Below are positions 37,756 to 39,752 of a stretch of DNA of 39,752 nucleotides, piece by piece; within the stretch, counting starts at the first letter, position 1, and each line of letters opens with the position of its first letter. This stretch comes from Oscillospiraceae bacterium. GTDB lineage: Bacteria > Bacillota > Clostridia > Oscillospirales > Ruminococcaceae. The stretch is from NCBI GenBank assembly GCA_017439985.1, contig JAFSIC010000016.1, positions 1 through 39,752 of the forward strand, written 5' to 3'. The notes under the pieces were generated by a model that was given only the letters and a program-made list of their open reading frames with translations, did not search any database and was not told the origin of the DNA. The translations under genes and the position numbers were made by a program.

Positions 37756-38451
37756 TTAGCCCTCCTGTTCCATATCCATCACGGTCAAAATGCCGTTATT
37801 CACCTTAAAATGCAGCTCAAAGCCCGCAAAACTCAGGCCATAGAGCCTCTCCGGATCGTCCTGATAGGCAGGTCGTGGATCCTGCGATAAAATACCCAAC
37901 AAAGCTGCCTGTTTTTCTTTCGGAAGTTTGTTCAATAGCTCCTGCGGAATCTCCACCTGAATGGAGTAGTCTTTCTTTTCCGCTGCGAAACCGCCACGGG
38001 CCTCCGGGTGGCTGTCCACGTAGGGGAGGTATGGCTTGATGTCGTAAATTGGCGTGCCGTCCAGCAGATCCGCTCCGGCAACGATAAGTGCCGGTCCATC
38101 CTCCGCATCCCAGTCAACCTGCAGCAGCTTCACGCAGGAAAGCCCCATAGGATTCGGGCGAAACGGCGCTCTTGTTGCAAAAACACCGATGCGGGTGTTT
38201 CCGCCCAATCTCGGCGGACGCACAGTCGGATGCCACGCATCGTGTTTATTCGCGCTGAAGCGCCAGATGAGCCAGAGATAATCAAAATCCTCGATGCCTC
38301 TCAAAGCCTCCGGATTGCGGCAGTAAGGTTCCAGTACAATGCGCGCCGTCAGTTCTTCCACCAGTCCGCTTTGACGAGGGATACCGAATTTCTCCTTGAA
38401 GTCGGTTTGAATATGAGCGATTGGCTCCATGATAAAGGTTTCGCTGGACAA
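37756..38451 (-). CDS. trmO: tRNA (N6-threonylcarbamoyladenosine37-N6)-methyltransferase TrmO
   Basis: SAM-dependent methylation of t6A37 in ANN-decoding tRNA-Thr (YaeB/TsaA family). Signatures are IAHIQTDFKEKFGIPRQSG, DFDYLWLIWRF, RPPRLGGNTRIGVFATRAPF, RPNPMGLSCVKL and LDGTPIYDIKPYLPY. The start is taken as TTG 38451, 7 nt after AAGGAGG; ATG 38430 would remove only seven residues. At 231 residues the length fits the family with its C-terminal extension. Couples to the SGNH hydrolase gene. Confidence 0.92.
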   Translation of the reverse strand: MSSETFIMEPIAHIQTDFKEKFGIPRQSGLVEELTARIVLEPYCRNPEALRGIEDFDYLWLIWRFSANKHDAWHPTVRPPRLGGNTRIGVFATRAPFRPNPMGLSCVKLLQVDWDAEDGPALIVAGADLLDGTPIYDIKPYLPYVDSHPEARGGFAAEKKDYSIQVEIPQELLNKLPKEKQAALLGILSQDPRPAYQDDPERLYGLSFAGFELHFKVNNGILTVMDMEQEG

Positions 38452-38508
38452 AATGCCGCCTCCTTTTTGGCTGTAACACTGAATTTTTAGAGAAAACTTC
38501 CAAAATCC

Positions 38509-38539
38509 TTGACATGAAGTCAGCTCTAAGTGTTATAAT
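38509..38539 (+). promoter_or_regulatory. Promoter of the DUF362 gene
   Basis: TTGACA (38509-38514), a long 19-bp spacer and TATAAT (38534-38539) with TG one base before it (extended -10). An AT-rich 7-bp hairpin (38552-38558 with 38565-38571) follows in the 80-nt leader. Confidence 0.65.
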
Positions 38540-38625
38540 GCTATCGTAAAGTAATATCTTCTTAGATATTATCCTTTCACAAGAAAAAAGTCAATGAACA
38601 ATCAAATATATGGAGGTCGATTCCT

Positions 38626-39489
38626 ATGAAATCCAAAGTTTACTTCTCCAGAACCATCACTCCAGAGAAAGTTCTTGAACTCTACGAACTGCTGGACAAA
38701 AAACTGGAAGGCAAAGTAGCGATCAAACTGCACTCCGGTGAACCTGGCAACCAGAACTTCCTGCGTCCTGATTTCTGGAAACCAATCATTGATTCCGTTG
38801 GCGGTACCGTTGTTGAATGCAATACCGCTTACGAAGGTGAACGCAACACCACCGAAAAACATCTGAAAACCATCGAAAAACATGGTTGGAGCACTGTTTT
38901 CCCATTCGACCTGATGGATGCAGAAGGCCCTGACATGGAACTGGATATTCCAAACGGTAAAATCATCAAAAAGAACTACGTTGGTAAAAATCTGAAAAAC
39001 TATGATTCCATGCTGGTTCTGTCCCACTTCAAAGGTCATCCGATGGGCGGCTTCGGCGGCGCGCTGAAACAGCTCTCCATCGGCGTTGCTTCCACTCTGG
39101 GTAAAAACAACATCCACGGTGCAGGCGATACCAGCGCATGGACCAAAAATCATGATGCCTTCCTCGAAGCAATGGCAGACGCTGCTGAATCCGTTGTTAA
39201 ATACTTCAACGGCAACGCAGTTTACATCAACGTAATGAAAAATATGTCCGTTGACTGCGACTGCTGCGCAAAAGCGGAAGACCCATGCATGAAAGACATC
39301 GGTATCCTGATCTCTCTGGACCCAATCGCTATCGACCAGGCTTGTCTGGATCTGGTTTACGCTTCCGAAGACCCAGGTAAAGATCACCTGATCGAACGTA
39401 TCGAAAGCCGCAACGGTATCCTCACCGTAGAAGCTGCTGCAGCTCTGGGCTACGGCTCTCGCGAATACGAACTGATCGAAGTAAAATAG
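38626..39489 (+). CDS. DUF362-domain protein
   Basis: A 287-residue cytoplasmic protein of the DUF362 family, a domain often linked to Fe-S proteins in anaerobes. It lacks the C-terminal ferredoxin domain found in longer members. Recognisable stretches are KVAIKLHSGEPGNQNFLRPD, LSHFKGHPMGGFGGALKQLS and a cysteine group VDCDCCAKAEDPCM that might bind a metal. The codon use is strongly biased like the ribosomal genes, suggesting high expression. ATATGGAGG precedes the ATG. Function unknown. Confidence 0.87.
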   Translation: MKSKVYFSRTITPEKVLELYELLDKKLEGKVAIKLHSGEPGNQNFLRPDFWKPIIDSVGGTVVECNTAYEGERNTTEKHLKTIEKHGWSTVFPFDLMDAEGPDMELDIPNGKIIKKNYVGKNLKNYDSMLVLSHFKGHPMGGFGGALKQLSIGVASTLGKNNIHGAGDTSAWTKNHDAFLEAMADAAESVVKYFNGNAVYINVMKNMSVDCDCCAKAEDPCMKDIGILISLDPIAIDQACLDLVYASEDPGKDHLIERIESRNGILTVEAAAALGYGSREYELIEVK

Positions 39490-39499
39490 TCCTCTCCAA

Positions 39500-39526
39500 G
39501 CAGGCGCCAAAAGCGCCTGCTTTTTT
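39500..39526 (+). terminator. Intrinsic terminator of the DUF362 gene
   Basis: GCAGGCGC / GCGCCTGC (39500-39507 with 39513-39520), CAAAA loop, then six T. Confidence 0.93.
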
Positions 39527-39538
39527 CTTTTTTCTCGG

Positions 39539-39567
39539 TTGACAAACCTCCCCGCTCCATGTAAAAT
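39539..39567 (+). promoter_or_regulatory. Promoter of the tRNA-like RNA and tRNA-Arg transcript
   Basis: Consensus TTGACA (39539-39544), 17-bp spacer and TAAAAT (39562-39567). Start predicted near 39574, 10 nt before the tRNA-like palindrome. No separate strong promoter is seen before the tRNA at 39707. Confidence 0.75.
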
Positions 39568-39583
39568 GAACTCAATGCGGCAC

Positions 39584-39687
39584 GCCTCCGTAGTTAAGTG
39601 GATATAATAAACCCCTCCTAAGGTAGCGTTACAACGCTCACCTTGGAAAAACCTTAGGAGGGAGCTGAGTCCGATAACTACGGGGGC
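39584..39687 (+). ncRNA. tRNA-Arg(CCT)-like inverted-repeat RNA of unknown function
   Basis: The first 40 nt read as the 5' half of a tRNA-Arg(CCT): 7-nt acceptor strand GCCTCCG, TA, D-arm GTTA-AGTGGATA-TAAT, A, then AACCC and the anticodon loop CTCCTAA. The expected 3' half with a T-arm is missing. Instead the second half is complementary to the first: 39675-39687 pairs 13 of 13 with 39584-39596, and 39652-39662 pairs 11 of 11 with 39613-39623. A competing local hairpin (39618-39646) uses the same CCTAAGGT strand. Could be a degenerate tRNA or a bistable regulatory RNA. Confidence 0.55.
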
Positions 39688-39706
39688 TGACAAAAAAATT
39701 TAATAT

Positions 39707-39752
39707 GTCCCAATAGCTCAGTTGGATAGAGCACACGCCTCCTAAGCGTGGG
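39707..39752 (+). tRNA. tRNA-Arg(CCT), 5' part, cut by window edge
   Basis: Acceptor strand GTCCCAA, TA, D-arm GCTCAGTTGGATAGAGC, A, and a perfect anticodon stem CACGC/GCGTG around loop CTCCTAA, giving anticodon CCT (Arg, AGG codons). The window ends just after the anticodon stem. Confidence 0.93.

Follow-up and report, generated by a model that had tools for sequence, protein, structure and literature searches.

The palindrome close to the 3′ end of the window (the whole analysed stretch, 39,752 nucleotides of contig C58 from an Oscillospiraceae genome, G000) is very probably the left attachment junction (attL) of an integrated mobile element and probably not a regulatory RNA. We consider it very likely that the element is an ICE, that attL was formed by tyrosine-integrase recombination with the anticodon loop of a host tRNA-Arg(CCU) gene for which no second copy was found, and that the replacement tRNA is element-borne. 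An earlier note, made from the sequence of the window, had taken the palindrome for one RNA upstream of a real tRNA and had listed a mobile-element end among its options; that option proved to be right.

The split host tRNA gene

Upstream of the junction lies a host gene for a 287-aa DUF362 protein (38626..39489, plus strand; PF04015, E 4.4e-48); DNA homologous to the flank carrying this gene borders an orphan 3′ half in the related genome G001. A promoter-like site, TTGACA-17-TAAAAT, at 39539..39567 of the plus strand matches the consensus at 11 of 12 positions, as the earlier note had said, and a comparable promoter layout precedes the G001 5′ half (L009). The host tRNA-Arg(CCU) is represented by an orphan 5′ half, with acceptor strand, D-arm and anticodon arm, at 39584..39623 of the same strand. 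The last 10 bases of this half (39614..39623) are also the common core CCTCCTAAGG of the anticodon loop, at which host and element meet. The element-borne attachment arm follows (39624..39706), with a GTTACAAC dyad (39628-39635), an inverted core CCTTAGGAGG (39652-39661) and an inverted stretch resembling a tRNA 5′ half (up to 39687), all on the plus strand. The first 46 nt of an element-borne tRNA-Arg(CCU) complete the window on that strand (39707..39752) and are cut by the contig end. This 3′-truncated tRNA gave the only Rfam match at 38000-39752, and its 27.7 bits, obtained from a tRNA inside which the contig ends, lie below the gathering score of 29 bits; ARAGORN called no tRNA in the window. 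The string CCTAAGGTAGCG (39617-39628), presumably also found in 23S rRNA in the region of the I-CeuI site, is probably a coincidence.

The stretch from 39614 to 39752 was found without a mismatch (139/139) in a Lachnospiraceae contig (L117), where a different tRNA 5′ half and unrelated upstream DNA precede the shared arm. Since identity starts exactly at 39614 and the DNA before it is unrelated, the arm and the tRNA that follows arrived together, as foreign DNA. The tRNA-Arg(CCT) of L117 is complete and its first 46 nt are identical to 39707..39752, which bears out the real tRNA-Arg(CCT) that had been proposed next to the palindrome. The L117 contig stops shortly after this tRNA, so the body of the element is outside view there. 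Similar arms were present in 10 further loci, again behind different host halves.

These comparisons bear on the suggestion that a decaying tRNA underwent a local inverted duplication with no mobile element involved. The 3′ half of the palindrome does resemble a tRNA 5′ half on the minus strand, as had been noticed: its reverse complement aligned to tRNA 5′ halves with a score reached by 0/60 shuffles (a single alignment test with single-base shuffles). However, the identical arm and tRNA stand behind a different tRNA half in another family, the host 3′ half has been displaced beside an ICE-type end, and L159, the other arm of the window family in that test, lacks such an alignment (38/60 shuffles as high). 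The difference between these two arms assigns the inverted tRNA-like segment to the window's version of the arm; in all, 3 of 40 arms reached 0/60. As the whole story inverted duplication is refuted, and we leave it a negligible chance, but it may account for how the arm originated inside the element.

The missing 3′ half was located in the same genome, on contig C53, where it reads from 24322 down to 24279; the 133 bp ahead of it belong to the right end of an element. Over 144 bp, this right end shares 93.75% identity with its counterpart in an ICE of Negativibacillus massiliensis. When the 5′ half of the window was joined to the 3′ half of C53, ARAGORN called a normal 75-nt tRNA-Arg(cct), in agreement with the earlier assignment of the 5′ part to a tRNA-Arg(CCT); the host tRNA was rebuilt in the same way in 6/6 genomes tried. 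In G002, of the same genus, the tRNA is intact between homologues of genes from both flanks and represents an empty site. The element body was not found in the G000 bin, which is incomplete and in which the best integrase match is 27% identical, so the ends of C58 and C53 are not physically joined in this assembly; in the strain itself the element would lie between the two halves. The locus in G000 (window 39490-39752 and C53, L267), with promoter and both halves, is inverted relative to the flanking genes when compared with G001, G002 and G003; simple integration gives no explanation for this inversion.

A tRNA-integrating island of the canonical type, in which attP makes the host tRNA whole again at one of the junctions, would share with the window the anticodon-loop site, the tyrosine integrase and the displaced 3′ fragment. 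Such an island is nevertheless an extremely improbable account of this locus: the host 5′ half together with the arm yields no tRNA, no reconstituted tRNA was found at attL or at the C53 junction, and the complete tRNA comes from another gene, located within the element, and not from an attP fragment that restores the split one.

Integrated elements in relatives and distribution of the junction

Integrated attL-bearing elements of the kind we propose can be followed in relatives. In N. massiliensis (G003) an upper element of 53 kb, which has a complete tRNA just within its border, encodes a relaxase, a T4SS coupling protein, a TraG-type ATPase and ParB. It terminates in a tyrosine integrase gene (PF00589), and an orphan 3′ half lies 0.8 kb away. 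This 3′ half and what comes after it are identical to L117 over 103 bases; a window-type element therefore lies beneath the upper one. The lower element contains a RepA_N gene and is 81% identical over 5 kb to L257, a locus with a window-type arm. Judged from the conjugation genes of the upper element and the RepA_N gene of the lower, they do not look like temperate phages. Another orphan 3′ half is located 145 kb further, beside a second integrase, and the region (G003:C2:317307-516124; L227, L033, L034, L268) contains elements stacked at one tRNA site with two integrases, each of which has an orphan 3′ half next to it. Two reverse-transcriptase (RVT_1) genes are further cargo of the upper element.

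A search of eight genomes for the integrase gave five strong matches (43-100% identity) in four of them, all of them no more than about 0.8 kb away from a tRNA half or a whole tRNA, and four weaker ones (27-33% identity). PF00589 is present in five integrases of related elements. Among the same eight genomes, the best match in G001 was 27% identical and contained a stop, and G012 had none.

Relatives of the palindrome were searched for in 61 genomes, including its own. This search, of the kind that the earlier note had suggested, gave two nearly full-length matches outside its own genome, in G003 (76% identity) and G016 (75%), besides many partial ones. Inspection of 24 loci revealed two main kinds: the 5′ half is either part of an intact 75-nt tRNA-Arg(CCT), or breaks off at CTCCTAAG, after which come an unrelated arm and a different tRNA-Arg(CCT), which is complete. 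In several of these loci two or more 5′ halves stand one behind the other. An order-wide search found the junction motif in 24/394 genomes, compared to 0 for a reversed control, and a complete tRNA-Arg(cct) was called in L117, L257 and L244.

The exact junction pattern occurs in at least 117 stretches of species genomes and in one contig of a viral collection; by their titles, most carriers among the matches listed belong to the Clostridia and a few to other Firmicutes. The viral-collection contig (L166, IMG/VR UViG_3300018479_000107) has the same junction and is perhaps an ICE filed as a virus. From the matches listed, 124 junctions in 118 sources were kept; a match in Arsukibacterium (L089), with no tRNA half on its 5′ side, was taken for a chance occurrence of the pattern and left out of the counts. 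A complete tRNA-Arg(CCT) lies downstream in 83 of the 124 listed junctions, and one (L077) has a tRNA with NN in the anticodon arm. Another 40 of them (L049-L166) are within 360 bp of a contig end, as is the junction of the window; assemblies seem to break there, and the counts are therefore probably low. Among the listed junctions with a complete tRNA, two or more 5′ halves precede it in 30/83, from 27 sources, and 56/83 have the tRNA start 92-94 bp after the core.

In each of the 12 junction-bearing genomes subjected to a pattern search, a single complete CCU tRNA came to light (in G000 it is cut), together with one or more orphan 3′ halves. By this count the host tRNA-Arg(CCU) appears to be single-copy in 12/12 genomes, with patterns that may miss diverged copies; the exact pattern missed the complete tRNA of G044. 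In that genome (L038:8066-8308) an 81-bp repeat made of arm and tRNA 5′ half occurs twice in tandem with a complete tRNA at the end, and an orphan 3′ half lies 6.1 kb further on. A third pattern match in G333 (L293) gave no tRNA call.

Pairing between the host half and the arm

The palindrome is where the earlier note had placed it and as regular as described. Its outer helix GCCTCCGTAGTTA (39584-39596 with 39675-39687) has 13/13 positions paired, one of them G-U, and its inner helix CCCTCCTAAGG (39613-39623 with 39652-39662) has 11/11. With a minimum free energy of −52 kcal/mol, the fold lies far below the mean of its shuffles (−29.9, z −5.9), none of which was as low (0/200). A fold of such stability speaks for a structured regulatory RNA, a switch or a tRNA sponge, in which selection would have matched the arm to the 5′ half and to the anticodon loop of the tRNA next to it. 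So does the interaction of the window arm with tRNA-Arg 5′ halves, which is far better than that of shuffled arms (0/40, z −8.0); five of 16 other arm clusters also reached 0/40, on one of two measures (z −2.2 to −4.1). In an alignment of the arm family (12 loci, with 8 distinct arms and 12 distinct halves) 78.1% of cells were paired, compared to 30-57% in versions slid by 1-3 columns, the structure having been drawn from one of the aligned sequences.

Evolutionary comparison points the other way. The compensatory base changes proposed as a check of both stems were absent over the 12 loci: 369/500 shuffles reached the percentage paired and 306/500 the covariation score. Two pairs of the inner helix are broken in 8/12 loci, and in the alignment variation is concentrated in the host half, the arm being almost constant. 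Native combinations were no better than swapped halves, either within the arm family (1368/5000) or over 117 pairs (15/60). Tested against 101 host tRNA-Arg(CCU) 5′ halves, the window arm gave a mean of −46.8 and a native value of −51.8, rank 14/101, and 11 of the 16 other arm clusters reached 0/40 on neither measure. The complementarity of the arm to the anticodon loop of the adjacent tRNA is real, but the special meaning attached to it did not hold, as both tRNAs are CCU with the same loop. The two arms are of different origin, one from the host and one from the element, and the identical element arm occurs behind an unrelated host half; together with the lack of covariation, this leaves the description as a single palindromised RNA, the switch and the tRNA-sequestering reading unsupported. 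A standard tRNA spanning the whole palindrome, the outcome the earlier note had set against itself, was not called by ARAGORN. We regard a regulatory RNA as very unlikely; what survives of it is the general affinity of the window arm for tRNA-Arg 5′ halves. A trend for promoterless arms to pair better with the 5′ half was inconsistent over arm clusters.

Proposed mechanism and known systems

Under the attL interpretation, the tyrosine integrase would recombine the element into the host tRNA-Arg(CCU) gene at its anticodon loop and split the gene, so that the promoter and 5′ half would remain at attL and the 3′ half would be moved to the far end. The short core would leave the host tRNA unrebuilt, and the complete tRNA-Arg(CCU) of the element would replace the lost one, a gene on which the cell presumably depends. 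In turn, the new tRNA would serve as the target of the next element, and the stacked 5′ halves of relatives would be explained by each new tRNA being targeted in its turn. This scheme is drawn from sequence comparison.

The first base of the window-type element tRNA is 93 bp after the start of the core, in the same direction. No good promoter was found between core and tRNA in the window arm, where the best site matches at 7/12 positions; on this basis we infer promoter capture for this arm type, in which the host promoter probably drives the element tRNA, to be excised afterwards from the transcript. Among the matches listed, 33 of 116 junctions have a good promoter (11-12/12) before the element tRNA, compared to 0.2% of shuffles.

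The closest known system is the tRNA-dependent lysogeny of temperate phages of Actinobacteria (Guerrero-Bustamante and Hatfull 2024, PMC10865867). According to the parts of that paper available to us, the tRNA requirement was demonstrated experimentally, the Discussion also names Lactobacillus prophage Lj965, and the authors state that prevalence outside Actinobacteriophages needs investigation. Those phages, as described there, and the present elements have in common a tyrosine integrase (here, in the elements of relatives), an attB in a host tRNA, and a short core (about 10 bp) that does not rebuild the tRNA, which is replaced by a complete tRNA of the same isotype borne by the element. In contrast to the phages as portrayed in those parts, the elements are conjugative, occur in Clostridia and some other Firmicutes and are known from their sequences; the tRNA mostly begins 70-95 bp from the core and is collinear with the host promoter, and insertions are serial, with stacked 5′ halves. 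No description of an ICE version was found in the open PMC literature, judged mostly from listings, and the ICE form, in which the tRNA of gut Firmicutes is replaced serially, seems to be a new version of this kind of integration.

Other comparisons extend as far as the accessible portions of the respective papers. In Sinorhizobium meliloti prophage hot spots (PMC11476347) a foreign tRNA likewise substitutes for the host tRNA, but the elements are prophages and stacked 5′ halves are not described in the portion available. In the disrupted tRNA-Thr of Caldiarchaeum (PMC3293823), too, the 5′ fragment of a tRNA stands before a complete variant, and a mobile element is held responsible; this case differs in involving an archaeon, a 1.8-kb recombinase element and intron gain. 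Fragments of tRNA from integration are reported in PMC9897764, and the accessible part of PMC12904643, on a gut mobilizable element, does not mention tRNA.

The attL interpretation offers a route for the repeated replacement of a core translation gene via horizontal transfer, and it predicts dependence of the host on the element; orphan tRNA halves and contig breaks may be explained by such integration. A broader joint reading, which we put forward as speculative and judge unlikely, is that a widespread class of conjugative elements in gut Firmicutes takes over the one tRNA-Arg(CCU) that the host has, with an arm segment folding away the dead 5′ half. If so, every arrival would kill the resident tRNA and supply its own, and with it a fresh landing site for the next; the host would depend on the end of the element even after the rest had decayed, and a layered, readable record of past invasions would be left. 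In the window arm type, which has no promoter of its own, the inverted tRNA-like segment would in addition hide this dead half and thereby allow expression of the element tRNA from the captured host promoter.

With the tDNA islands of Islander (PMC4383910, available in part) the elements share the tyrosine integrase, the anticodon-loop sub-site and the displaced tRNA fragment at the far end; the islands, as presented there, carry a fragment that restores the split gene, whereas here a whole tRNA gene is carried. Derivation of the window arm from a plain tRNA 3′ half was not supported, as 5/60 shuffles scored as high. Likeness to a tRNA 3′ half was detected in 9 of 40 arms (at most 1/60 shuffles as high), against a chance expectation of about one, some of the nine being relatives of one another; this bears on a possible descent of such systems from tRNA-restoring ones.
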